Positions 48,671 through 62,549 of a DNA stretch of 64,000 nt are shown in pieces (within the stretch, counting starts at the first letter, position 1; every line of letters starts with the position of its first letter). Origin of the DNA: Bacteroidota bacterium. GTDB lineage: Bacteria; Bacteroidota; Rhodothermia; Balneolales; HLUCCA01. Location: the NCBI GenBank assembly GCA_020832235.1, contig JAFIEZ010000007.1, positions 248,001 through 312,000 on the forward strand, read 5' to 3'. The notes under the pieces are model-generated. The model was not told where the DNA came from, searched no databases, and worked only from the letters and a program-made list of their open reading frames with translations. The translations under genes and the position numbers were made by a program.

Positions 48671-49519
48671 ATGAAACAATATCACGACCTGGTTCAGCGC
48701 GTACTTGACAATGGCGTTCTGAAGAACAATCGAACTGGCACCGATACGATATCCAGTTTTGCAGAATCATATCGTGTTGATCTGGCCGATGGATTTCCCT
48801 TATTAACCACAAAGAAAGTCTTTTTCCGTTCGGTAATACTGGAGTTGCTGTGGTACCTGCGGGGAGAAGATCATATTCGGTGGTTGCGAGATGAGAATAA
48901 CTGTCATATCTGGGATGCATGGGCTGATGAGGACGGACATGTGGGTCCTATTTATCCCGTAATGTGGCGAAAGTTTCCGTACGCAGATTTCGAATCTGTG
49001 AGCTTTGATGGTAATGCCGCATCGTTGGAGAAGCAGGTTACTATTGTGAGGGAAGTTGACCAGATACAAAATGCAATCCACCTGCTGAAAACAAATCCAG
49101 AAAGCAGGCGTATAGTCGTCAGTGCCTGGCATCCAGGACTTCTGAGCAAAATGGCCCTGCCACCGTGTCATGTAATGTTTATTTTTAACGTAGCCAACGG
49201 AAGACTAAATTGCCATCTTACCCAACGATCTGGCGATATAGCCCTTGGAATTCCATTTAACTTGGCTTGCTATTCTGCGCTCACAATGGCTATTGCACAA
49301 GAAGTTAATCTTGAACCGGGCGTTTTTGCGCATACCATTGTAGATGCTCATATTTACGTAAATCACGTTGAAGGACTCAAAGAGCAGCTTACACGCAAAC
49401 CAAAGCCACTTCCAACGTTAACAATTAATTCAAAACCAGTTGATCAGTTATCATTGGAAGATTTCAAGCTGGAGGGTTACGACCCGGATCCGGTGATCAA
49501 GTTTGAAGTTGCCGTATAA
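48671..49519 (+). CDS. thyA: Thymidylate synthase
   Basis: 282 residues. The nucleophile is Cys166 in LPPCHVMFIF. SRRIVVSAWHPG, QRSGDIALGIPFNLACYS and HIYVNHVEGLKEQLTRKP are all diagnostic. It methylates dUMP to dTMP with methylene-tetrahydrofolate, yielding dihydrofolate, which the next gene reduces. Its stop overlaps folA by one base (TAATG). Confidence 0.96.
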   Translation: MKQYHDLVQRVLDNGVLKNNRTGTDTISSFAESYRVDLADGFPLLTTKKVFFRSVILELLWYLRGEDHIRWLRDENNCHIWDAWADEDGHVGPIYPVMWRKFPYADFESVSFDGNAASLEKQVTIVREVDQIQNAIHLLKTNPESRRIVVSAWHPGLLSKMALPPCHVMFIFNVANGRLNCHLTQRSGDIALGIPFNLACYSALTMAIAQEVNLEPGVFAHTIVDAHIYVNHVEGLKEQLTRKPKPLPTLTINSKPVDQLSLEDFKLEGYDPDPVIKFEVAV

Positions 49520-49995
49520 TGGAACTGCATCTCATTGTCGCTCACGACCGAAACCTGGTGATTGGAAATGACGGGAAACTGCCCTGGCATCTACCTGAAG
49601 ATCTCAAGCATTTCAAATCTGTTACTATGGGTTCTCCAATACTAATGGGGCGCGGTGTATTTGAGGAAATTGGCTGTAAACCGTTGCCTGGCAGACGAAA
49701 TATTGTGCTTACTTCACGGCACTACAATAACGTTGAAGTTTACGCCTCTATTGATGAAGCGTTACGTAAACTTTCAGATGAATCCAGGGTTTTTGTGATT
49801 GGAGGTGGGCAAGTATATAGCCAAATGATATCTATGTGTACCTATATGTATGTCACATTGGTTCATGGCGATTTTAAAGGGGATGTTTTTTTTCCAGAAT
49901 ACCGAGATGACATCGGTACAAAATGGAGGCTTACCCGTTCCACACCCGGAGACAAGTTCGATTTGCTGGAATATCAGAGAATCACGGTTCCCTGA
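49519..49995 (+). CDS. folA: Dihydrofolate reductase
   Basis: 158 residues. The N-terminal LIVAHDRNLVIGNDGKLPWH carries the Met20-loop tryptophan-type region, and the catalytic acid is the Glu of LPEDLKHFKSVT; GRRNIVLTS and VFVIGGGQVYSQMI bind NADPH. It regenerates tetrahydrofolate. Tight coupling to thyA is the classical arrangement. After its stop a 94-base gap (49996-50089) leads to the kinase genes, with no terminator visible. Confidence 0.95.
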   Translation: MELHLIVAHDRNLVIGNDGKLPWHLPEDLKHFKSVTMGSPILMGRGVFEEIGCKPLPGRRNIVLTSRHYNNVEVYASIDEALRKLSDESRVFVIGGGQVYSQMISMCTYMYVTLVHGDFKGDVFFPEYRDDIGTKWRLTRSTPGDKFDLLEYQRITVP

Positions 49996-50089
49996 CGTAA
50001 ATACCGTTATATTAGAACAGTTGCTTTTTTCAAAATGCTGATGCTTCCCCTGATATATGAGGGAAGGAATCATATATTATTATGTAGCC

Positions 50090-53000
50090 ATGTCAGAGTT
50101 CAACTCCCCAATTACATTTCTAACCGTTGAAAAAGACAGTGCCAGTCAGGAGCTGCTTCCCGAAATTCTATCCCCCTTTTTCCCGTCAATAAACATTGTT
50201 TCGGCCCGTTCTATCGAGGAAGTCAGAATAAATATTAAGGGGAAAATTCGACCAGATGTTGTATTTGCTGATTACGAGCTTTCTGATGGCAGTGCTGCTG
50301 ATTTGATTTCTTTTTGTGATGAAGTTCCTGTTATTGTCGCTTTGCAGGACAATAATCCCGCCGTTGCCGAAGAGTTGATGAAATCGGGTGCTTTTGATTA
50401 CATAGTAAAAAGCCCGAATCGCTCTTATCTGCAAATATTGCCATACATTGTAGAAAAAGCGGTTCACAAAAAAAGAATTACAGATAACGAAAAGCTACTC
50501 TCAAAAGTCGTTACCCACATCCGAGATGCGGTTATTGTTATAGATGAAAATCTGAAGATCGTATTTACAAATCCTGCATTTTCTTCAATTTATGGCTACT
50601 CTCAAGACGAAGTTACAGGTTGTTCGGTTAGCATTTTACTGCCCGATAATCAGAAAGATGATATTAGCTGGCAGAGTCACAAGGGTGTAGAAAAAAGGCA
50701 TCGAAAAAAGGATGGAGCCGATTTATATGTCTCAGAAGCTATATCTGAGATATCAATGCACCACGGCAACGACAATTTTAGAATCATTGTGTGTCGTGAT
50801 ATTACAGACAGGGTACAGATTGAAAAAAGCCTGGCTGCCACAACCGTACGATTGGACGGGGTGTTATCGTCAATTGATGATGTTGTTTACTCAATGGATA
50901 GTAAAACCAGGGAAGTTTTTTATGTAAATAAAGCTACTGAAATTGTTTTCAATATGTCGGAAGACGAGTTTCGTCAAAACACAATTTCCTGGAAAAAAAT
51001 GGTTCACGGAGGGGATCTATATAAGCTTGAAGTTGCCTCAATGAACTTGCAAAAAAATGGTTACGCGGAGGCTGAATATCGGCTGATTACTCCTAAAGGA
51101 GATATAAAGTGGCTTCGCGACAGGGCCTGGATTGTAGGGGATGAGGGGAGCAGTCGTATTGACGGTATCATCACAGATGTATCCGAAAGAAAGTTTGCAG
51201 AACAAGCCTACAGGGACTCAGAGGAGCGTTATCGAACTGCCATTCAAAGTTCAGTTGAAGCCATCTATATGATGAACCCGGCTAATCTGGCGGTCACTGA
51301 GGTTAATGAAGCGTTCTGCAACCTGCTTGGCTACACCCGCGACGAAGCTTTGCAGCTGAAGATGACGGATTTTGTAGATCAGCATGAGAGAAGAACTACA
51401 CGCTACATTGAACAGGTAATTGAAGACGGGAAGAGTATTCTAGATAAGAGAATATGGAAAACTAGAGATGGACGTCTGTTAACAGTTGAAATTACAGCGA
51501 ATAAAATTGTTCAACGAGATCAAGAAATTATTTTTGTAGTAGCTCGTGATGTAACTGCTCAAATGGAGATAGAACGTCAGCTCGATAACGAAAGACAGTT
51601 ACTTAGAGAAGTAGTAGCTAACGCCCCGGTTCCCATGGCTATTTTAGATGATCAGCTCAAGTTTCTGATTTTCAGCAGAACGTGGTTACAGGCATACGGT
51701 CCCTCAAAAAAGAGTATTCAAGGTAAAAAACTCTTTGAAGTCTACGATATGCTTCCGTCATCTTGGGAAAAACTTTGCATTCGAGGCGTTGACGGCGAGG
51801 TACTTCACATTGCTGAGGAGGAGCTAAAGCTTAAGAACGGGGAACATATTTATTTGCGATTGGCTATACACCCTTGGGGTAATGTTGAAGGACACCGAAG
51901 AGGTATAATACTTGTTGCAGAACGAATTGACGAACTTGTAAATGCCCGTAAAGCAGCTGAAGAGGCAAATAAGGCGAAATCGGGTTTCCTGGCTCGTATA
52001 ACTCACGAGCTTAGAACCCCATTAAATGCGATTTTAGGATACTCCCAGATTATGTCGAATGATGATGATCTGGCTGAGGTGCACAAAGGTTATGTTGACA
52101 ATATGTACCGAAGTGGTAATTATTTGCTCAACATGATTAACGATATTCTAGATATCTCGAAAATCGAAGCTTCAAAACTTGAACTGCAGCATGAACCGGC
52201 CGACCTGCACGAGATTATCAGGGATGTTGTGGAAATGTTCAAGCTTAAAGCCGGCGTAAAAGGCATTGAGTTACTCGCAGAAGTGAATCCTGCCATTTCA
52301 CAGTCTGTCAAGATCGACCGTTCAAAATTTAGCCAGGTACTTATTAACTTAATTGGGAATGCTGTCAAGTTTACCCAAAAAGGGACCGTAAAACTATCTA
52401 TAAACCTCGACTCCACAGATAGTGCGAGTACAACCGAGCAACTGGTTACCATAGAAGTGAAGGACTCTGGAAGGGGCATACCACCAGAAGACTTACACCT
52501 TATATTCGAGCCATTTCATCAGGCCAGCAATACCGACATTCAGGGTACTGGCCTGGGACTTGCTATTACAAAACGCATTATTAATCTGATGGGTGGTGAC
52601 ATAACGGTAGCCAGTACACTAGGTGAGGGTTCTACATTTACATTCACGGTGCCTATAGTTAAAAATCTGGAAGAGCTGGCGAAAAGAGTCGACAGGTTTA
52701 CCGGTGTATCCTCAGTGAGGGATCCTCAGCCACTCAATATATTGGTTGTTGATGATGTAGAACTCAATCGAACAGTTGCCAGATTAATCCTCGAGCGTGT
52801 TGGAGCAACTATAACTGAAGCAAAAGATGGACAGGAAGCTGTAGATATATTCAAGTCTGGTCAGTTTCATGCAGTAGTTATGGATATTATAATGCCCGTC
52901 ATGGATGGTGTTAAGTCTATGAAAACCATCCGGAAAACGCGTAAGGGGAAGAACGTTCCCATAATCGCATTAACAGCCAGTGGCTTTGATGATAAACGTG

Positions 53001-53371
53001 ACGCCCTTATACAAGCTGGTTTTGATGAATATATCTTGAAACCATTTAAAGAGGCAGAATTACTCAAGGCCTTGTATGATCATGCCGGTGTAGAATTTAA
53101 TTTTAAGAATAAAGTCATATCAAAAACGACGATAAATGAAGAAGCGGATGCGACTACTATCTGCGTTACACTCGTGAAATCTCTTCCGAAAACGTTGAGA
53201 GGAGAGCTGGAAGAACTAATAGCGGTACAGGATATAGACGAGATTGAGAAATTTGTGCAAAATAATTTAAGACACACTGACTACAATAAACTTGCAGAAA
53301 TTCTACATAAGGTAACTAACGATTACGATTTGTATTTTCTATCTAACGTTTCGAAACGACTTTCGGATTAA
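50090..53371 (+). CDS. Hybrid sensor histidine kinase (REC-4xPAS-HisKA-HATPase-REC)
   Basis: 1093 residues from the ATG at 50090 (MSEFNSPITF); an ATG at 50057 adds 11. The N-terminal receiver (8-125) has Asp61 in FADYELSDG and Lys in DYIVKSP. Four PAS-type sensor domains follow, starting around VVTHIRDAVIVIDENLKIVF, VLSSIDDVVYSMDSKTREVF, AIQSSVEAIYMMNPANLAV and VVANAPVPMAILDDQLKFL. The HisKA has His639 (RITHELRTPLNAIL). The HATPase has N, G1 and G2 boxes (LINLIGNAVKFT, KDSGRGIP, GTGLGLAITKRI). A C-terminal receiver has Asp932 (VVMDIIMPVMDG), and a ~70-residue helical tail ends the chain. There is no membrane segment, so sensing is cytoplasmic (redox, ligand or partner). It starts the accessory operon. 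Confidence 0.92.
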   Translation: MSEFNSPITFLTVEKDSASQELLPEILSPFFPSINIVSARSIEEVRINIKGKIRPDVVFADYELSDGSAADLISFCDEVPVIVALQDNNPAVAEELMKSGAFDYIVKSPNRSYLQILPYIVEKAVHKKRITDNEKLLSKVVTHIRDAVIVIDENLKIVFTNPAFSSIYGYSQDEVTGCSVSILLPDNQKDDISWQSHKGVEKRHRKKDGADLYVSEAISEISMHHGNDNFRIIVCRDITDRVQIEKSLAATTVRLDGVLSSIDDVVYSMDSKTREVFYVNKATEIVFNMSEDEFRQNTISWKKMVHGGDLYKLEVASMNLQKNGYAEAEYRLITPKGDIKWLRDRAWIVGDEGSSRIDGIITDVSERKFAEQAYRDSEERYRTAIQSSVEAIYMMNPANLAVTEVNEAFCNLLGYTRDEALQLKMTDFVDQHERRTTRYIEQVIEDGKSILDKRIWKTRDGRLLTVEITANKIVQRDQEIIFVVARDVTAQMEIERQLDNERQLLREVVANAPVPMAILDDQLKFLIFSRTWLQAYGPSKKSIQGKKLFEVYDMLPSSWEKLCIRGVDGEVLHIAEEELKLKNGEHIYLRLAIHPWGNVEGHRRGIILVAERIDELVNARKAAEEANKAKSGFLARITHELRTPLNAILGYSQIMSNDDDLAEVHKGYVDNMYRSGNYLLNMINDILDISKIEASKLELQHEPADLHEIIRDVVEMFKLKAGVKGIELLAEVNPAISQSVKIDRSKFSQVLINLIGNAVKFTQKGTVKLSINLDSTDSASTTEQLVTIEVKDSGRGIPPEDLHLIFEPFHQASNTDIQGTGLGLAITKRIINLMGGDITVASTLGEGSTFTFTVPIVKNLEELAKRVDRFTGVSSVRDPQPLNILVVDDVELNRTVARLILERVGATITEAKDGQEAVDIFKSGQFHAVVMDIIMPVMDGVKSMKTIRKTRKGKNVPIIALTASGFDDKRDALIQAGFDEYILKPFKEAELLKALYDHAGVEFNFKNKVISKTTINEEADATTICVTLVKSLPKTLRGELEELIAVQDIDEIEKFVQNNLRHTDYNKLAEILHKVTNDYDLYFLSNVSKRLSD

Positions 53372-53384
53372 TGGGGTACCCGAT

Positions 53385-54524
53385 ATGGAAAAGTTAGGCA
53401 CTATTTTGGTGGTGGATGATACACAGCAAAACGTGCAGGTTTTGTCTCAGATGTTGCGTGATGCAGGCTACGCTGTGATGGCTAGTTTTAACGGGCAAGA
53501 TGCTATAAACATCCTGGAAAGGCGAACTCCAGACCTCATTCTCATGGACGTGATGATGCCAGAGATGGATGGATTTGTTGCTACACGGCACATAAAGTCC
53601 AATCCGGACTATGCATTAATACCCATCATATTTTTGTCTGCTTTAAGTGACACGGAATCAAAGCTAAGAGCGTTTGAGTCGGGCGGTGTTGATTACATTA
53701 CGAAGCCTTTTCAGCAACAGGAAGTTCTCGCTAGAATTGCCCTGCATTTATCTTTGAGGAAACTCCAACAAGAAAAAGAACAATATATTGGCCAGCTTAA
53801 AGAAAAGCAGCTCCACCTGGAAAAACTGAATAAAGAGAAAGACGAAGTACTCTCGGTACTTAGCCATGATATGAGAAATCCACTTGGCGGTATAATCGGC
53901 ATTGTTGATTTACTCAAAAGCGAGCCGATTGATTCTCAGGAAGAACTCTTTTCTATGCTCGAACTTATAGATGTGTCAGCTAATCGATTGTTGAGTATGG
54001 TTAACGATATGCTGGATATAGCAATCATTGAAACAAGTACTGCAAAACTAGTACGAACGCAGGTCTCCATACCCACGCTAATTGATGATGTTGTAAGCAT
54101 GCATGCACCGGCGGCAAAAAACAAAGGAATTTCAATCCAAACTAAGGCTGACGAGAAGCTGCCAATGATTCAGGCAGATCAATCAAAAATTGCTCAGGTA
54201 TTTGGAAACTTAATTTCAAATGCAATTAAGTTTACACCTACTGGAGGTGCGGTAAGAATCGGTGTCGAAGTGAATGATGAGTATCCGGGTTATCTCGTTT
54301 GTACTGTTTCTGATACAGGTATCGGAATACCCGATGACATCTTGCCCGTATTATTTGATAAGATGGGTAACCATCAGCGCCAAGGTACTCAGGGAGAAGT
54401 GGGCACCGGGCTTGGTATGCCAATTGTTAAACGTTATATAGAAGTACACGATGGCGTGATCGACGTGGCTACAGAAGAAGGTAAAGGAACCGTATTTACT
54501 ATATTATTGCCGTTGAATATTTGA
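53385..54524 (+). CDS. Receiver-histidine kinase hybrid
   Basis: 379 residues: an N-terminal receiver with VVDD at 9-12 and Asp55 in LILMDVMMPEMDG, a coiled-coil linker (~120-150, LQQEKEQYIGQLKEKQLHLE), a HisKA with His161 (SVLSHDMRNPLGGI), and an HATPase with VFGNLISNAIKFTPTGG, VSDTGIGIPDD and GEVGTGLGMPIVKRY. This receiver-first kinase has no sensor domain of its own and would be switched by an upstream phosphodonor, most simply the hybrid kinase 14 bases before it. It is cytoplasmic. Confidence 0.92.
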   Translation: MEKLGTILVVDDTQQNVQVLSQMLRDAGYAVMASFNGQDAINILERRTPDLILMDVMMPEMDGFVATRHIKSNPDYALIPIIFLSALSDTESKLRAFESGGVDYITKPFQQQEVLARIALHLSLRKLQQEKEQYIGQLKEKQLHLEKLNKEKDEVLSVLSHDMRNPLGGIIGIVDLLKSEPIDSQEELFSMLELIDVSANRLLSMVNDMLDIAIIETSTAKLVRTQVSIPTLIDDVVSMHAPAAKNKGISIQTKADEKLPMIQADQSKIAQVFGNLISNAIKFTPTGGAVRIGVEVNDEYPGYLVCTVSDTGIGIPDDILPVLFDKMGNHQRQGTQGEVGTGLGMPIVKRYIEVHDGVIDVATEEGKGTVFTILLPLNI

Positions 54525-54585
54525 ATTCTTATCTCAATCTTATATTCTTATATTTAGGCTATAAGTATGTTTAGCTAAAGATATT

Positions 54586-54957
54586 TTGAATAAAAAAACT
54601 GTTTTACTGGTTGAGGACAATCCTAGTATTTCTAAATTAGTGGAGTATAAGTTACTAAAGGATGGTTATACTGTTGTAGCTAAAACCAACGGGCTAGAAG
54701 GTTATGAAGCTGCAAAAGAAATGCAACCAGACATTTTGATTTTGGATGTCATGATGCCCGGTATGAATGGTTTTGAGCTGTTGGAAAAGTTCAAAAAAGA
54801 ATTCCCAGATTCAAATACGAAGGTTATTATGCTCACATCCAAAAGCAGGGAAGAAGACATACAGAGAGGCTTTAGTTTGGGAGTATTGGAGTATATGGGA
54901 AAGCCATTTAAAGTGGCAGAACTATCGATGCGAGTAAAGAAAGTCGCCGATTTGTAA
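54586..54957 (+). CDS. Single-domain response regulator (CheY-like)
   Basis: 123 residues and only a receiver: acidic pair ED at 10-11, Asp54 in LILDVMMPGMNG, Thr in VIMLTSKS and Lys in YMGKPFK. No output domain is present, so it acts by protein contact or as a phosphate relay. The start must be TTG (54586), because an in-frame stop lies eight codons upstream and no ATG is available. It sits between the two kinases and the HEAT/glycosyltransferase pair, and is the likely link between them. Confidence 0.9.
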   Translation: MNKKTVLLVEDNPSISKLVEYKLLKDGYTVVAKTNGLEGYEAAKEMQPDILILDVMMPGMNGFELLEKFKKEFPDSNTKVIMLTSKSREEDIQRGFSLGVLEYMGKPFKVAELSMRVKKVADL

Positions 54958-55004
54958 CTACTGCATAATCTGCAGCTTTTGGTTCTAATTTTATTTGGGA
55001 ATCT

Positions 55005-56102
55005 GTGGAGACATTAGCATTTCAGTTTATCTTATCGACTACACTGGTTTTGATAACCATCACCATGTATCTTTTTGCTTCATCGGTGCTTGTGAGGAAT
55101 GCGCACAAGAGAGAAGAATATCTAATAGAGAGAAAAAAAGAAGAGCTATATCCTATTATTCTATCCTATATGATTGAAGATAGTGACGATATGCAACAGC
55201 TTGAAGAGCATGTGAAAGGCAAAGTTGATATTCATGTTTTGCTCACTATCATGTATGAAATAATGGATAGTGTAGAAGGTGATGAAATTGATCGCCTTAA
55301 AGATATACTGGCCATTGATGTTGTACGTCAGGATCGCCGTAAACTGCTAAGAAGTAAGAATGTTGAGAATCGTATACAAGCTTGTGCATACTATTCCCGT
55401 CTTGCCCGCTTTGATGAAGAAGAATTCATTTTTTTTGAGCGATTTTTGTATTCCGACAAACTCATGCTGGCTCATACAGCTGCAACAGCGCTAATGAGTG
55501 CTGAAAATATTGATTACAGGTTTCTGGCTTTATCAGCTATGATGAAAAGAAAGCGGGTCTCCAGAATGGCTATTCTGGATTTACTATATCAGTTTCATAA
55601 TCGACATAATGATCAGATGGATGAAGAGGCTGAAAAACTCCTTGCCATCATTCACGACCGTTCTCTACCCACCGATAACATAGCTGTGTGCATCAAAGCT
55701 ATCTGTGAAATCGGATATGTAACCATAGCGATGGATCTATTTGAACTGCTGGAGTCGGGTTACTGGAACAAATCGGGCAATGTTACTGAAGCTCTTATTT
55801 ATGCAATGGGCAGGTTTGAGCTGGGCTTTACGGCTGATTCTATTGCAGAACGCTATCTTTCAGACCCACGTGTGCAGGTGAGGCGAGCTGCAGTTGAAGC
55901 ACTAGAGCGATTTCAGGATGAATCTCTTATTAACTCATTTCACAAAGCAGCAAAAGACACAGAATTCATTGTGCGGCTTAAGTCGATTTATGCCCTGGCT
56001 GGATTCGGGGAAATAGCCAAACCTATTCTTAATCAGCTTGCTCAGGAGACAGACGAGATGCGTCTGTTAATCAGGGGTGTACGCGCCGAGGTTGAGGGTT
56101 GA
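55005..56102 (+). CDS. Membrane-anchored HEAT-repeat protein
   Basis: 365 residues from the GTG at 55005. One N-terminal membrane helix (~7-29, QFILSTTLVLITITMYLFAS) is followed by a basic, charged coil (RNAHKREEYLIERKKEEL) and then a helical solenoid. HEAT-like units are clearest in VQVRRAAVEALERFQDESL and FIVRLKSIYALAGFGEIAKP near the C-terminus, with weaker copies before (NRIQACAYYSRLARFDEEE). The basic residues after the helix put the solenoid in the cytoplasm (positive-inside). HEAT arrays are docking platforms. The glycosyltransferase begins two bases after its stop, so the two are made together. No enzyme motif is seen. Confidence 0.8.
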   Translation: METLAFQFILSTTLVLITITMYLFASSVLVRNAHKREEYLIERKKEELYPIILSYMIEDSDDMQQLEEHVKGKVDIHVLLTIMYEIMDSVEGDEIDRLKDILAIDVVRQDRRKLLRSKNVENRIQACAYYSRLARFDEEEFIFFERFLYSDKLMLAHTAATALMSAENIDYRFLALSAMMKRKRVSRMAILDLLYQFHNRHNDQMDEEAEKLLAIIHDRSLPTDNIAVCIKAICEIGYVTIAMDLFELLESGYWNKSGNVTEALIYAMGRFELGFTADSIAERYLSDPRVQVRRAAVEALERFQDESLINSFHKAAKDTEFIVRLKSIYALAGFGEIAKPILNQLAQETDEMRLLIRGVRAEVEG

Positions 56103-56103
56103 A

Positions 56104-58665
56104 ATGACAGAACAGCTACTTGGTATCATCAACAGTATTTTCGCTCAGTATACGGTGTTTATCATTGCCTATTTTGTAGCTTTGAACTCCATTTATTTGC
56201 TGTTAATAGTATTCTCTTTTTTACATATCCGAAAGCAGATTAAAGAAAAAGACGTCTACAAGATGCACGGATTGTTCGCCTCAAACCTATACAATCCTAT
56301 CAGTATTCTTGCTCCTGCATACAATGAAGAGGCGACGGTTGTTGAATCGGTTAATTCCTTGTTGCAATTACGCTATCCAAATTTTGAGGTAATTGTAATC
56401 AATGATGGCAGCAATGATCAGACATTGCAGGTACTCATCGATAAGTTTGACCTTGAACGAATAGAGCGCTACATCCCTCTTGTTCTTGATCATAAACCCA
56501 TCCGTGGTATATATCGATCTCGACGATTCAGTGAGCTGATTGTAGTGGATAAAGAAAACGGTCGGAAAGCTGATGCTTTAAATGCCGGTATTAATGTTTG
56601 TAGAAATGATTTGTTTTGTGCCATCGATGCCGACTGTGTACTCGAGCCGGATGTACTGCAAAATATGCTTCGCTGTTTTATTGAAGATGAAACAACTATT
56701 GCGGTAGGGGGAATTGTCAGGGTTGCTAATAACTGTGTTATAGAGGGTAATGAAATCAAAGAAATACGAATGCCAAAGTCGTTTCTGGCACGTATACAAG
56801 TGGTGGAATACCTCAGGGCATTCCTTTTTGGCAGGGTCGGGTGGGATTATATGGACTCGTTGCTAATCATTTCCGGAGCATTTGGAATCTTCGATCGAAA
56901 TGCAGTACTCAGGGTTGGCGGATACCTGCACGATACGGTTGGCGAAGATATGGAGCTTGTTGTGCGTATGCATCGCTATCACCGAGAAAATAAGATTCCT
57001 TATCGTGTTCGCTTCTTGCCTGAACCTGTCTGCTGGACAGAGGTACCCGAAGATGTGAATGTTTTATCACGACAACGGAATCGATGGCATCGAGGACTTG
57101 CCGATACGATATGGCGACATCGAAAAATGATTGGGAATCCGAAATATGGCAGATTGGGTACGTTTGCCATGCCGTTTTTCCTTTTTTTTGAATTACTATC
57201 ACCTGTAATCGAGCTTCTTGGGTATCTGGCAGTTATACTCATGGTTATACTTGGCGTATTTAACTCTACGTTTGCCATACTTATTTTTAGTGCTACTGTA
57301 CTATTAGGGGTGGTCTTATCTGTTGCGTCTGTACTTTGTGAAGAATATACCTTTCGCAGGTATACAAAGGTTAAGGATGTGCTCACAATGGTTGCTTTTG
57401 CATTTATTGAGAACTTCGGATATCGTCAGGTTCATGCTTTGTGGAGATTTAAGGGACTGGTTGATTTCCTCAGAGGGAACAAAGAGTGGGGTGTGATGAC
57501 ACGTAAAGGCTTTGGCGGTAGTACTGCAGAGGAGCAGGACAAAACTCAGCCGGCGCAGGTTGCACCAGTTGTGAGTGTGGTTGATGGAACGCCAGAGTAT
57601 AAGATTGGGCAGAAAATTGAAAATTTTGATCTATATAGTCGCAGAGCGGAACAAATTGTAGGAAAGTACGCAGGCAAGCAAACCGATGACGGCGAATATC
57701 TCGAAGATGATACGTTTCAGGATGCTTACAACCGCAGATCCTGGACCAAAACAGTACTTCCTGTTTCGGTATTGCTGGGTTCCTTATTACTAATGGGGAT
57801 TTGGATTAATGCCAACACGGGACAACGACTTACTTTAACTCAGACCGATTACCATCAGGTTGAGTTGTCTCCAACCCTTAGCGCTGATATATCTGGCGTA
57901 CGTTTACCACTATTCGCATATGGGGTTTTAGCTACAGGCTCTGACATTCACTTGGTTACGGAGCTTACAAGTCAAAGTGCACCCTCCTATCTAGCTGACA
58001 TCTCTGCAATTTCCGATCCTCGCGTGCAAGAAGGAGTAGGCCAATCACCCCCGGCAGCGAGTAGTATTGAAAGCTCATCCCATATTCTTTACGATGGACG
58101 GTCACTCGAGGAGGTGCTTTCTCGTATTTATCAGCGGCCTACTGTGGGACATTATTTCATATCGGAGCATTTGTTTACAAGTAACCAGCGCCTAGATCAC
58201 CTACGGAGCTACCGCACAAAGGCTGCCACCTTGGGATTCAGATTTTTTGCTCGACCTACGTTGCTTTCTGAATACAGCTATATTGCATGGAGCGTAGGCT
58301 TTGGTCCTTTTTCTACTGCTCGACAAGCCATACATTATGCCATGCTTCATGACTACGATATAGGGTCAATTCAAATCATCAACAGTGCTGTACAAGATTT
58401 GAGGGTATTCAGCTCACAGCCAGAAGAAGCCATATATACCATCCACCTGATTCATTCGGGTAGTGCCAGCAATCAGAAATTGTATATAAATCATCTCGAG
58501 GAGCTCGGTTTTAACAATTTTAAACGAGGTAGCTCACCGCATTTCGGAGTGTACATTGGTGCTTTTTCATCGCAACAGGAAGCAGAACTCATCATTGAAC
58601 ATACCCTTTCGGCTTACGGTATCACTGATGCTGTCGTTTTGCCCATCAAAAGGCAGCACGAATAG
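56104..58665 (+). CDS. Processive family-2 glycosyltransferase with C-terminal tandem SPOR-like domains
   Basis: 853 residues from the ATG at 56104. A helix (~15-42) precedes the GT-A domain (~63-330): ISILAPAYNEEATVVESVNS, Asp101 (INDGSND), DAD at 175-177, GED at 280-282 and QRNRW at 324-328, the D,D,D,QxxRW set of processive synthases such as PgaC/BcsA. Membrane helices follow at ~356-385 and ~388-412. A cytoplasmic linker contains no PilZ domain. A further helix (~551-570, LPVSVLLGSLLLMGIWI) leads to a periplasmic tail with two SPOR-like units, ~681-760 (core IAWSVGFGPFSTARQA) and ~777-848 (core HFGVYIGAFSSQQEA). SPOR domains bind glycan strands lacking stem peptides. Its 3' end overlaps the convergent YaiO-like gene by 20 bases. 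Confidence 0.85.
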   Translation: MTEQLLGIINSIFAQYTVFIIAYFVALNSIYLLLIVFSFLHIRKQIKEKDVYKMHGLFASNLYNPISILAPAYNEEATVVESVNSLLQLRYPNFEVIVINDGSNDQTLQVLIDKFDLERIERYIPLVLDHKPIRGIYRSRRFSELIVVDKENGRKADALNAGINVCRNDLFCAIDADCVLEPDVLQNMLRCFIEDETTIAVGGIVRVANNCVIEGNEIKEIRMPKSFLARIQVVEYLRAFLFGRVGWDYMDSLLIISGAFGIFDRNAVLRVGGYLHDTVGEDMELVVRMHRYHRENKIPYRVRFLPEPVCWTEVPEDVNVLSRQRNRWHRGLADTIWRHRKMIGNPKYGRLGTFAMPFFLFFELLSPVIELLGYLAVILMVILGVFNSTFAILIFSATVLLGVVLSVASVLCEEYTFRRYTKVKDVLTMVAFAFIENFGYRQVHALWRFKGLVDFLRGNKEWGVMTRKGFGGSTAEEQDKTQPAQVAPVVSVVDGTPEYKIGQKIENFDLYSRRAEQIVGKYAGKQTDDGEYLEDDTFQDAYNRRSWTKTVLPVSVLLGSLLLMGIWINANTGQRLTLTQTDYHQVELSPTLSADISGVRLPLFAYGVLATGSDIHLVTELTSQSAPSYLADISAISDPRVQEGVGQSPPAASSIESSSHILYDGRSLEEVLSRIYQRPTVGHYFISEHLFTSNQRLDHLRSYRTKAATLGFRFFARPTLLSEYSYIAWSVGFGPFSTARQAIHYAMLHDYDIGSIQIINSAVQDLRVFSSQPEEAIYTIHLIHSGSASNQKLYINHLEELGFNNFKRGSSPHFGVYIGAFSSQQEAELIIEHTLSAYGITDAVVLPIKRQHE

Positions 58666-60058
58666 TAAATTGTAGGCTTTGTCCCCAGAAATCGGCTACG
58701 TTGCTTTGTGTACTTACACCCACGAGGTTTGTATACCGATAAGCCAGTTCTGACGCAATATTTTCAAATGGCCTGTATCCGAATACCAGTGCTGTTTCAT
58801 ACTTAAGCGCGGGATCATCAGCCTGCGTGTTGTGTAGTTGAAATTGTTGCATCCCAATATCGCCTGAGAGCTGCAAAAAAATGAACTCCTGCCTGAATTC
58901 CCATCGTAGGGTTTGAGCTAGTGCAAACCAGAAGTGCCACTCGGGAGCAAAATATCCATTGTTTATTCCGCTTTTTTCAAAACTTCTGTAAGCTCCCGAT
59001 ATTCCTGGTGTGTAGGTAAGCTCAGCAAAGCGAAAGCCGTACTGGTAGCTGCCAGCAATAAAGATTCTTTTGTTATCATCAGATAGCCATCCGTGATTTG
59101 CTCTTAGTCCTATCTCATGGTCATTTATACTGAAGTTAGCATTCCCCTCCACATCTGTTTGGTAGATTGCATTTGATATTAGCGCAGGTGTATCGGTCAA
59201 CAGAATGCGAGAGGCACCAACCGAATAGTTAGTGTGCATGGTTCGAAATATCACGGCACCTGACGGGCTGAGTCTGACCGGGCTATCGGGCACATAGACA
59301 GTGGAAAGGGCTCCAATAGCCGACCAGTTTCTGTTAAATTGTTGTCGGGCACCTAATGAAAAAGAAACAGACTGTGCCTGTTGAGAAGTGAATGTGTTTC
59401 TGCTATTAACATAATCTGATCTGCCCGTTACTGCCGTTCCGGGCAACACACCAATGTGCACCGATTGCGTTAGAATATGTGTTCCAATATTTTCAGAATC
59501 CCACACGTAGGTATATCTGCTCAAGCTTTCTGTACTCATCCAATCGTTAACAGCCTGCTGTATGGTCAGAACATTGGGATCATCGGGTGCGTCTTCAGCC
59601 AGGCGGCGGGCTAGTTGATCTGCTCTGCGCAAGTTGCCATACCAGAATACCATTTGAACTTGCAGAGATCTAAGCTCAAGATTATCCGGATTTCGTTCCA
59701 GAACGGCTTCTGCCAACCTCAGAGCGTCAACAGTCCGGTCTTGCCATGCAATGACTCTAATAAGGGCTGCAGCTGCATCCCAATCGTTCGGGTTCTCATC
59801 ATAGAGTATGCTAAGAGCCGATTCGGCCTCCATATAATTGCCGGTCCAGCCTAGTAGTAAGGCGTGACGAAATCGGAATTCATAATTTTCGGGTTCTTCC
59901 TGAAGAAGCCGGTTATATGCCTGCAGGGCCTGATCATGTATACCTGTTCTAAAAAGAGAATCGGCGTAGGTGGAAGAAGGAACTCCAGTGTACTGGGCAT
60001 GTAGCACGGGTACGCTTAGACACAGTACCCAGATAATTAGAAGTAAAAAGCGTTTCAT
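58646..60058 (-). CDS. TPR plus outer-membrane beta-barrel protein (YaiO-like)
   Basis: 470 residues from the ATG at 60058 (MKRFLLLIIW). A signal peptide ends near LHA-Q22. About 150 residues of tetratricopeptide helices follow (SLFRTGIHDQALQAYNRLLQ, FRFRHALLLGWTGNYMEAES, then DALRLAEAVLERNPDNLEL), then ~280 residues of alternating beta strands with the terminal Phe (FTIRAAF) used for BAM insertion. This plan (periplasmic TPR, outer-membrane barrel) is that of YaiO and of the exopolysaccharide exporters PgaA and BcsC. E. coli yaiO is next to the family-2 transferase yaiP, so the pairing here repeats. It is the last gene of the HD-fecR-yaiO row, seven bases after fecR. Confidence 0.8.
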   Translation of the reverse strand: MKRFLLLIIWVLCLSVPVLHAQYTGVPSSTYADSLFRTGIHDQALQAYNRLLQEEPENYEFRFRHALLLGWTGNYMEAESALSILYDENPNDWDAAAALIRVIAWQDRTVDALRLAEAVLERNPDNLELRSLQVQMVFWYGNLRRADQLARRLAEDAPDDPNVLTIQQAVNDWMSTESLSRYTYVWDSENIGTHILTQSVHIGVLPGTAVTGRSDYVNSRNTFTSQQAQSVSFSLGARQQFNRNWSAIGALSTVYVPDSPVRLSPSGAVIFRTMHTNYSVGASRILLTDTPALISNAIYQTDVEGNANFSINDHEIGLRANHGWLSDDNKRIFIAGSYQYGFRFAELTYTPGISGAYRSFEKSGINNGYFAPEWHFWFALAQTLRWEFRQEFIFLQLSGDIGMQQFQLHNTQADDPALKYETALVFGYRPFENIASELAYRYTNLVGVSTQSNVADFWGQSLQFTIRAAF

Positions 60059-60065
60059 AAGTAAG

Positions 60066-61295
60066 CTATTGTGAAATGTCGATCTCTTCAACAAACAAGG
60101 CATTTGCCTGATTTATATTTGCTGTTACAGACTCAAAGACTATGTCTAATGGATTGATTACGACCCTGTATTGCGAGCTCTCGGTTACCGATATTTCCCA
60201 ATATCCATCTTCTGCCGGTATCGCACCTCTCAGACCGGTTGCAGACTGTAGGTACCAAACATCCCCCCGGCTGAAAACGCCAACATGCAGAGGAGTATCC
60301 GTATTTGGTACACACCCGTAAATATAAGTCTGTCCGCGAATCTGTGTATAAGAAGCATAATAGTTCGTAATGCTGCAATCAAGGGTGTCTTTAACCCGGC
60401 CGGAAACGGTAAAGCGAAAACCGTCTGACCAGCGTGAAACGCCGAAGCTGTGGTGTACACTGCCGATACTTATGGTGTATGTTCCCTCAGGTAACCCGCT
60501 CACCGTGTAAGCCGGTTCTTCGCTCATATGCTGGAAATAGGGAAGAAGGTTGTCACTTTTCTCTATTCGAACCATGTATTGTAGCGTGGGTTCCGTGGAC
60601 CTCCAGGTAATGGTGTATCCGCGAACCAGGTCACCGGGAAAATAAGTAGGTCCATCATCCTCGGGTGAAACAATCTGAACCGCTGCAGGCATTTCGGTCA
60701 ATTGGCGCTGTGAGGAGAACCTGCTAACTACCAGCTTACTTCCGCTTCGTATGGTCGTTGAACCCTCCTCCTCAGTCCATCTGATGGGACCATTCGGTAC
60801 AAGAATGTGCACATTTTCAGAAGTTACCTTTGTGTATATCTCGTTAAATGGGTACACCAACCAGCTGGAAGCATCCGGGCTGGTTGTAAGATTACCCACG
60901 GGGGTTTGAAAGGCTCCGGCAACACGAACATCAGAGATATGACGTTTAATATTCATCCAGCCAGCAGCAAGTTCAAATATGGGTAACCTGTAACCTTCAA
61001 CTCGATGGTAACCGGCTGAAAATGCTCCTCCGAAATGAATAAAACTGCGTTCACTGAGTTTCAAAATAAGCTGACTGTCATCACGGCCTGTGAATGAAGT
61101 ACCTACCTGAACGGTGTCGCCTCGGGAGAGCTGTAAACCTTGCCGGGTGTAAACATCTCCCTCAACCTGGTACACTATTACCGGAAGGGCATTGAGTTCT
61201 CGCAGCGTATTAACGGGACTAAGTACAATCCAAACGATAATGGCAATAGCGAGAATCGACAGAATCCATACCCAAATGTACTCGAAATAATTCAT
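60066..61295 (-). CDS. Membrane-anchored FecR-domain protein
   Basis: 409 residues. An N-terminal helix (~8-30, VWILSILAIAIIVWIVLSPV) is followed by a FecR-like beta domain (~42-190; GDVYTRQGLQLSRGDTVQVG, then SQLILKLSERSFIHFGGAFS and FELAAGWMNIKRHISDVRVA), then a fibronectin-III-like stretch (~205-300; YTITWRSTEPTLQYMVRIEK, LPEGTYTISIGSVHHSFGVS). The C-terminal ~110 residues are beta-rich and unassigned. The short N-terminus lacks the anti-sigma segment of true FecR regulators and no sigma factor is adjacent, so a structural periplasmic role is likelier. It starts directly after the HD gene stop. Confidence 0.75.
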   Translation of the reverse strand: MNYFEYIWVWILSILAIAIIVWIVLSPVNTLRELNALPVIVYQVEGDVYTRQGLQLSRGDTVQVGTSFTGRDDSQLILKLSERSFIHFGGAFSAGYHRVEGYRLPIFELAAGWMNIKRHISDVRVAGAFQTPVGNLTTSPDASSWLVYPFNEIYTKVTSENVHILVPNGPIRWTEEEGSTTIRSGSKLVVSRFSSQRQLTEMPAAVQIVSPEDDGPTYFPGDLVRGYTITWRSTEPTLQYMVRIEKSDNLLPYFQHMSEEPAYTVSGLPEGTYTISIGSVHHSFGVSRWSDGFRFTVSGRVKDTLDCSITNYYASYTQIRGQTYIYGCVPNTDTPLHVGVFSRGDVWYLQSATGLRGAIPAEDGYWEISVTESSQYRVVINPLDIVFESVTANINQANALFVEEIDISQ

Positions 61296-62549
61296 TTACA
61301 GAACAAGGTCCTTTAGGTGAACAATGTAAGGTTTTACTACCGCTTTGGTCAGGGCGCTGATATTGCCTGTTTCGCTTGCTCTTGAGAACTCTATTGCGGT
61401 GTTGTGGTCCTGAAGTATCCAAATCCCTTCACTTTCGTATCGATAGGCCTCATTCACCAGTTCGTCAAAAAACAGGTAATAGGATGCTGACTTTTCGTCA
61501 TGGGGCAGACGGGCATCTTTGAGTGCCTTCCGTGTTTTTTCAATTAAAATATTCTGCTCGTTTGCCGAGATGCGTTTTTTTACGAAGGTGGTGCGGAAGA
61601 AGCGTCTGTTAAGGAATCTGTTCGACAAGTCTGCGAGTATCGGATCTTTTGCATCTTGCCAGCATTTTATACTCAAGAGTACATCGTTATCATCGATGCG
61701 CAGGTAGTTTTCTGTAATGCGCGACGTGAGTCCTTTTTTGGCTGATGGGTAGGTTTTCAAAAAGAATCCCAGCGCAGGGGAGGGCATGGGAACAGTGCCT
61801 CCCTCGGTGTGAATGTCGCGAACGCGTCGGAAGATTGATGCCAGTAGCTTGTCACCACTCAGCACTGTTTTGTGCTGATAAACTTGCATGTACATGAGTC
61901 TGCGTGCCGTGATGTAGTTTTCTACGGCATAAATACCCTTCCCCTCAATGACGACATTACCCTGAAATACCCGCATGGTTTTTATGATGCGATCAATGCC
62001 GATAGAGCCCTCATTTACCCCGGTGTAAACACTGTCGCGCCTGAGGTAATCTAAACGGTCCATATCTAGCTGGGAGGATATAAGCTGATGTAAAAACGTT
62101 TTTGGATGCTGACCCGTAAAAATGTCGATGGCTGTAGAAAGGCCGCCGTCAAACTCTTCATTTAGTTTGCGCATTAACGCGAGGGTCATCATTTCGTGAT
62201 GAAAATCGCGTATGATGGTCTGTTCCAATGTGTGTGAAAACGGACCGTGGCCAATGTCATGCAGCAGGATACCTATGAGCACGGCCTCGTGTTCGGCCCT
62301 GGTTATGGTGGTATCTTTTTCTCGAAGACTATTAATGGCTCGCTGCATAAGCCCGAGCGCTCCGATAGCGTGAGAAAAACGGGAGTGTTCGGAGCCGGGG
62401 AACACCAGATAACCCAGACCAAGCTGCCTGATTCTGCGGAGGCGCTGCACGTAAGGGTGGTCCACCAGTTTGAGCACAATACCTTTAGGTACGCTTATAA
62501 ATCCGTGAATTGGATCGGTAAAAATTTTGTAATGCGTGCGTTTATCCAT
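61296..62549 (-). CDS. HD-domain phosphohydrolase (dNTPase/SAMHD1-like family)
   Basis: 417 residues. It starts with IFTDPIHGFISVPKGIVLKL and YVQRLRRIRQLGLGYLVFPG, then HSRFSHAIGALGLM (His55/His60), GILLHDIGHGPFSHTLE with His97-Asp98, and the downstream Asp in LISSQLDMDRLDYLRRDS. This order is that of the COG1078 HD family, related to SAMHD1 and dGTPases. Substrates may be dNTPs or other nucleotides. The start is at 62549 on an ATG. FecR begins at the very next base after its stop, so expression is coupled, but a shared function is not proven; the family is also found as a stand-alone house-keeping gene. Confidence 0.88.
   Translation of the reverse strand: MDKRTHYKIFTDPIHGFISVPKGIVLKLVDHPYVQRLRRIRQLGLGYLVFPGSEHSRFSHAIGALGLMQRAINSLREKDTTITRAEHEAVLIGILLHDIGHGPFSHTLEQTIIRDFHHEMMTLALMRKLNEEFDGGLSTAIDIFTGQHPKTFLHQLISSQLDMDRLDYLRRDSVYTGVNEGSIGIDRIIKTMRVFQGNVVIEGKGIYAVENYITARRLMYMQVYQHKTVLSGDKLLASIFRRVRDIHTEGGTVPMPSPALGFFLKTYPSAKKGLTSRITENYLRIDDNDVLLSIKCWQDAKDPILADLSNRFLNRRFFRTTFVKKRISANEQNILIEKTRKALKDARLPHDEKSASYYLFFDELVNEAYRYESEGIWILQDHNTAIEFSRASETGNISALTKAVVKPYIVHLKDLVL

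Follow-up and report, generated by a model that had tools for sequence, protein, structure and literature searches.

Introduction

Matrix polymers made by bacterial GT2 enzymes are usually presented as being controlled by c-di-GMP, and c-di-GMP-responsive control is usual, although not universal, in synthase-dependent exopolysaccharide systems. The E. coli exopolysaccharide system NfrB-NfrA comprises an inner-membrane GT2 and a TPR-containing outer-membrane barrel (PMC8669469). Here, a group of eight genes at positions 50090-62549 of a 64-kb stretch of DNA, hereafter called the window, was compared with systems of this type. The system is real and recurrent, and its general type, synthase-dependent polysaccharide export, is a known one; its control module was found nowhere described. 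No description of a HEAT-GT2 or receiver-HEAT-GT2 unit was found in the literature searched, outside which most subscription papers lay, and such absence is not proof. The locus probably encodes a synthase-dependent system for polysaccharide synthesis and export, in which a HEAT-GT2 complex is switched by a phospho-receiver and the product exits through a TPR/barrel protein. The gene order, domains, catalytic residues, conservation and gene fusions described below were observed directly; from these we infer binding, phospho-gating, processivity, export and the nature of the polymer.

Gene order and domain content of the locus

The positions, order and strands of the eight ORFs were as given in an earlier sequence-only reading, which had described the genes as lying back to back (Table 1). 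The plus-strand genes are closely spaced, and the minus-strand genes for the HD, FecR-like and TPR/barrel proteins adjoin one another and converge on the GT2 gene. The ORF of the hybrid histidine kinase opens at 50057, the ATG at 50090 being also possible. For the GT2, whose ORF opens at GTG 56077, the ATG at 56104, one base past the HEAT stop codon, is the more likely start, as is the ATG at 60058 for the barrel gene, the ORF of which opens at 60103. Pfam searches bore out the domain labels given earlier to the kinases, the lone receiver, HEAT_2, GT2, TPR and HD, but those of SPOR, YaiO and FecR were not confirmed in the window.

Table 1. Features of the locus, in window coordinates
Feature	Position	Strand	Evidence
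Hybrid histidine kinase, REC-PAS(n)-HisKA-HATPase-REC	50090..53371	+	Pfam; same-order orthologs in L046 and L048
Receiver-histidine kinase, REC-HisKA-HATPase	53385..54524	+	Pfam; kinase-like gene upstream in 27/78 loci
Stand-alone receiver, D54/T84/K106 present	54586..54957	+	Pfam
Membrane-anchored HEAT solenoid	55005..56102	+	HEAT_2 over Pfam cut-off; AlphaFold
Processive-type GT2 synthase, family-specific C-terminal tail	56104..58665	+	Pfam; NCBIfam; invariant motifs
SPOR-like stretch at end of GT2 tail, with an additional hydrophobic segment before it	58456..58611	+	Subthreshold SPOR
TPR and outer-membrane beta-barrel, candidate exporter	58646..60058	-	TPR by Pfam; Foldseek; low-confidence strands
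FecR-like/Fn3-like single-pass envelope protein	60066..61295	-	Subthreshold FecR and fn3 in ortholog L048
HD phosphohydrolase-like protein	61296..62549	-	Pfam HD, HD_assoc_2

Two further loci of the window's family, L046 from the same genus and L048, keep the order kinase-kinase-receiver-HEAT-GT2, and L048 also keeps HD-FecR-like-barrel. In the window (48671-49995) and in L046 the module adjoins thyA and/or a dihydrofolate reductase gene. Such neighbours were likewise seen in another family of the order (L049, L085), a placement reflecting either repeated insertion at this site or an old synteny.

The FecR domain (PF04773; cut-off 24 bits) claimed for the envelope protein was undetected in the window even at an E-value of 10, and the ortholog in L048 stayed below the cut-off with 19.5 bits, together with a subthreshold fn3 match. 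FecR proteins of the window's own genome aligned with it unconvincingly (weak hhalign matches), and its FecR identity was rejected. Both the HD and the FecR-like genes at the module were confined to the window's family, HD synteny being found only in L048. That FecR is a general part of the system is thus unsupported, and the HD protein, which had been proposed as a component, was rejected as such; it is treated as a neighbour and is probably no part of the module.

Linkage of the HEAT protein to the GT2 synthase

The HEAT protein matched PF13646 (HEAT_2) over the cut-off with 45.9 bits. Its AlphaFold model (pLDDT 96.7) is entirely helical, with a long N-terminal helix (residues 2-58) followed by about 19 helices, and its fold matches were alphaRep/HEAT. 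A single N-terminal hydrophobic segment was present in 76 of 78 HEAT sequences, followed by a conserved R31, and by the positive-inside rule this would place the solenoid in the cytoplasm, where the GT2 catalytic domain also lies.

In 139 of 147 testable loci, pooled from all three locus sets (order, phylum and the best 80 loci beyond the phylum), a HEAT gene was the same-strand gene directly upstream of GT2, compared with 3 of 1,705 other ORFs. Since the HEAT profile had been made from the same gene set, this background rate is the fair control, and the gene arrangement is far beyond chance. The linkage spans Bacteroidota, Gemmatimonadota, Proteobacteria, Bdellovibrio, Spirochaetota and Bacillota. 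At least one natural fusion is clear: the GT2 of Sphaerochaeta (L170) carries a HEAT part at its N-terminus (HEAT profile E 1e-10; Pfam HEAT_2 30 bits, over the cut-off). L187, L193 and L215 are three weaker cases, with the same length and layout but lower HEAT scores. The HEAT-GT2-barrel unit was tandemly duplicated in one genome (L138:6237-16946), and a HEAT-GT2 pair (L194) was seen on a contig labelled as a Thermoplasmatota archaeon, probably owing to a binning error.

The order was represented by 98 genomes, 44 of which carried a GT2 homolog. Nearly all of 40 neighbourhood regions from the order, each up to 20 kb long, showed receiver-HEAT-GT2; some also had upstream kinases, and about half a YaiO-type barrel nearby. 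One genome of the window's genus (G150, 98% complete) was without GT2, indicating that some lineages of the genus have either acquired the locus or lost it. A scan of GTDB genomes beyond the phylum, from which the best 80 loci were taken and which is no census, revealed HEAT directly upstream of GT2 in Gemmatimonadota, Marinimicrobia, Myxococcota, Bdellovibrio, Alpha- and Gammaproteobacteria and Elusimicrobia, and in Bacillota including Clostridium, Paenibacillus, Brevibacillus and Sporosarcina; the HEAT-GT2 fusion of a spirochaete was also among these loci. The neighbourhood search that had been suggested earlier thus extended the HEAT-GT2 linkage far beyond the phylum, and the unit is larger than first guessed.

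The receiver and control of the synthase

After HEAT, the receiver was the next most constant neighbour, usually at position -2 and in the same orientation. A stand-alone receiver lay at most five genes upstream of GT2 in 59 of 78 loci, in 52 of them at -2, while about a quarter of the loci had none close upstream. The window's receiver (123 aa) has Response_reg as its sole Pfam domain, with no DNA-binding or output domain, and the phosphorylation residues were retained in most of 82 upstream receivers. Receivers that were not stand-alone often formed a fusion with GGDEF or Hpt just ahead of HEAT, and these fusions point to the HEAT-GT2 unit as the receiver's output.

The HEAT-GT2 complex could be real and the receiver and kinases nevertheless not be allosteric gates, acting elsewhere, for example on gene expression via other regulators, with HEAT as a structural subunit for assembly or localisation of the GT2. 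The linkage of HEAT to GT2 is indeed tighter than that of the receiver, and the HEAT-GT2 fusions exclude the receiver. We consider this unlikely, given the constancy, position and orientation of the receiver, its lack of a DNA-binding domain and the frequent receiver-GGDEF or receiver-Hpt fusions just before HEAT. Control of the synthase through HEAT and the receiver, as proposed from the window, is strongly supported by the conserved gene order, the natural HEAT-GT2 fusions and the lack of c-di-GMP enzymes in most carriers.

None of the eight genes of the locus was recognised as encoding an Hpt protein, so that direct transfer from kinase to receiver is the simplest reading, and the receiver-histidine kinase is a candidate kinase for the lone receiver. 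The term phosphorelay, used in the sequence-only reading, was therefore too strong for this locus, although receiver/HEAT control itself was supported. An Hpt gene or an Hpt-receiver fusion was present in some relatives, and some Bacillota and Myxococcota carry Hpt-receiver-GGDEF fusions at the module.

GGDEF was undetectable in 38 of 45 module-bearing genomes, including the window's own, and PilZ was likewise absent from the latter (97% complete). The lack of PilZ and GGDEF noted for the window thus holds across its whole genome; c-di-GMP control of the window's module was rejected, and control by the receiver is the likelier alternative. None of the c-di-GMP-responsive elements PilZ, PgaCD and MshEN was found in the window's system, MshEN being absent from the Pfam matches of the GT2. 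Some relatives of the same class did show a receiver-GGDEF fusion or an upstream GGDEF protein at the module, and c-di-GMP may be an input in such lineages. In three genomes of that class (G008, G229 and G147; loci L107, L106 and L112) the sole GGDEF found in the genome lies at the module, and c-di-GMP would there be a private signal of this synthase. Because GGDEF occurs at the module only in some relatives, the receiver is the element that they share, and c-di-GMP has been added in particular lineages. Directly upstream of the Sphaerochaeta HEAT-GT2 fusion, a protein combining an ODP-type metallo-beta-lactamase fold with GGDEF and a receiver was observed (L170:4568-6580), which may serve the synthase as a sensor of oxygen or NO.

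The GT2 synthase and its product

The GT2 motifs D, DxD, ED and QxxRW were invariant among 27 aligned relatives (D110, D184/D186, E290-D291 and Q333-R334-W337 in ORF numbering). The best NCBIfam model was PgaC/IcaA (TIGR03937) with 147.7 bits, far below its cut-off of 422, and the CelA model gave 40 bits (cut-off 699). The strongest named matches were mostly processive synthases (PgaC, CelA, NodC), and these results point to a processive synthase closest to PgaC/IcaA, yet no member of that family. That the enzyme is no polymerase but loads single sugars onto a carrier lipid or protein would fit the breadth of the GT2 superfamily and the low PgaC/IcaA score; this is very improbable, since QxxRW and the other hallmarks of processive glycosyltransferases are invariant, the named matches favour processive enzymes and the GT2 is constantly paired with an exporter-type TPR/barrel.

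The SPOR domain (PF05036; cut-off 21 bits) proposed for the GT2 tail was over the cut-off in the same-genus ortholog L046 (25.7-29.5 bits), whereas the window itself remained subthreshold (14.2 bits; E 0.058). SPOR was limited to the window's genus among the loci compared, and a SPOR link to peptidoglycan was accordingly dropped as a general feature.

Sulfatase-fold transferases, with LtaS/MdoB-type best models, recurred beside or fused to GT2 in relatives, but not in the window, which suggests that they decorate the polymer in the lineages carrying them. Neighbours of GT2 of about 800-820 aa, first clustered with YaiO, turned out to be such transferases with a C-terminal TPR tail. GT2 proteins of about 1,140-1,190 aa were also observed (L119:6937-10374, L131:6297-9875, L168 and L171). 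Both long fusions that were scanned carry a C-terminal sulfatase/LtaS-fold transferase domain, possibly a polymer-modifying enzyme of the module, and the PgaB-like hydrolase/deacetylase domains considered for fused GT2s of 1,130-1,190 aa were rejected on the basis of these two.

The TPR/barrel protein and export

In a phylum sample of 395 genomes, the GT2 core was found in 95, YaiO (PF19413) in 93 and both in 92 (Fisher p 2e-85, shared ancestry being ignored), and 84 of 97 YaiO barrel genes were located no more than 10 kb from this GT2. In each of five genera of the order (g2, g3, g5, g6 and g10), species with both genes stood beside species with neither, and no listed genome had one alone, which means that the association does not trace to one inherited event. 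Separation of the GT2, HEAT and barrel genes in related genomes had been named beforehand as the result that would speak against the proposal; the genes were co-located across the phylum. The HEAT-GT2 pairs at the Bacillota loci examined had no YaiO barrel next to them, as would be expected if this protein crosses an outer membrane. A receiver-barrel-HEAT-GT2 layout occurred in L181 and L186.

The GT2 carriers of the phylum sample that showed no PF19413 match were three, namely the window's own genome, G140 and G377. Although described earlier as YaiO-like, the window's barrel matched neither YaiO model (TIGR04390 and PF19413; Pfam, NCBIfam and a PF19413 search of the genome) nor, by hhalign, the YaiO barrel profile, and was rejected as a YaiO member; syntenic barrels of relatives clearly matched the YaiO models. 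Its TPR part did align with YaiO-family proteins by profile-profile comparison (99.4% probability over 174 columns). The position of the barrel is YaiO-like, and the barrel itself has diverged or been replaced. Identity between the porins PgaA and BcsC is no more than 10.6% (PMC9384988), so that such barrels may become too different to be recognised. A TPR match in Pfam, low-confidence strands and a fold match to BcsC identified an outer-membrane barrel with a periplasmic TPR part alongside the GT2, and the C-terminal F of the barrel was invariant. The AlphaFold model was poor (pLDDT 59.9), so that the best Foldseek match, E. coli BcsC, rests largely on the TPR part and was used as weak support only.

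Were the convergent HD-FecR-TPR/barrel operon a separate envelope system, with the GT2 product exiting otherwise or staying cell-associated, the missing YaiO matches and the location of the barrel in a different operon on the opposite strand would be accounted for. True YaiO barrels elsewhere are, however, also often encoded on the opposite strand beside GT2, YaiO is present in all other GT2 carriers of the phylum sample and the TPR parts align, which makes a separate system quite improbable.

Proposed mechanism and significance

In the preferred reading, the GT2 and the membrane-anchored cytoplasmic HEAT solenoid would form an inner-membrane complex. One or more of the neighbouring kinases would phosphorylate the adjacent receiver, which would dock on or leave the HEAT scaffold and thereby activate or silence the GT2. 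As it grows, the polymer would cross the inner membrane via the GT2's own channel and leave through the convergently encoded TPR/beta-barrel protein. Against this reading speak the missing YaiO matches and poor model of the window's barrel, the GGDEF found at the module in some relatives, the quarter or so of loci with no stand-alone receiver close upstream and the absence of GT2 from G150. From the interpretation first given to the locus, the co-location of GT2, HEAT and barrel and the HEAT-receiver control were retained, while HD, FecR as a general part and a general SPOR link were not.

A broader generalisation is put forward tentatively, namely that of a widespread synthase class with a constant HEAT partner, gated without c-di-GMP by direct binding between (phospho)receiver and HEAT. 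In many diderms the polymer would leave through YaiO as a dedicated exit in the outer membrane, and in many lineages it would be decorated by LtaS/MdoB-like sulfatase-fold transferases. In most of the Bacteroidota carriers tested, enzymes of c-di-GMP synthesis went undetected, and the receiver-HEAT-GT2 module offers a concrete, testable answer as to how these bacteria control such synthases. The YaiO barrel family, for which no functional account was found in the literature searched, is matched with an enzyme and a likely role, and HEAT proteins adjoining this GT2 in Bacillota and Proteobacteria thereby gain a likely function.

Comparison with known systems

The E. coli yaiP-yaiO pair resembles the window in that a GT2 gene (28% identity over 239 aa) lies near a YaiO barrel, but no HEAT or receiver is found among its annotated neighbours, which include an acyltransferase remnant and a putative deacetylase, and the E. 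coli YaiO is short (about 257 aa), with little room for a TPR part. The cellulose system BcsA/BcsC likewise combines a GT2 synthase with a TPR/barrel, the window's exporter being closest to BcsC by Foldseek; the two GT2 enzymes are, however, only distantly related, and the window has no PilZ and no identified BcsB. With PgaABCD, which makes poly-beta-1,6-GlcNAc, the window shares the logic of a TPR/barrel exporter, and its GT2 is 27% identical to PgaC over 272 aa, although it scores far under the PgaC cut-off; neither a PgaB deacetylase nor PgaD was identified, and HEAT and the receiver stand instead of PgaD and c-di-GMP. The likeness to NfrB-NfrA lies in the combination of a GT2, a TPR/barrel and a control element that acts, or in the window would act, on the GT2. 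NfrB is gated by c-di-GMP via a fused MshEN domain (PMC8669469), whereas in the window's system, from a genome without detectable GGDEF or PilZ, this place is taken by a separate, in some relatives fused, HEAT protein together with a receiver.
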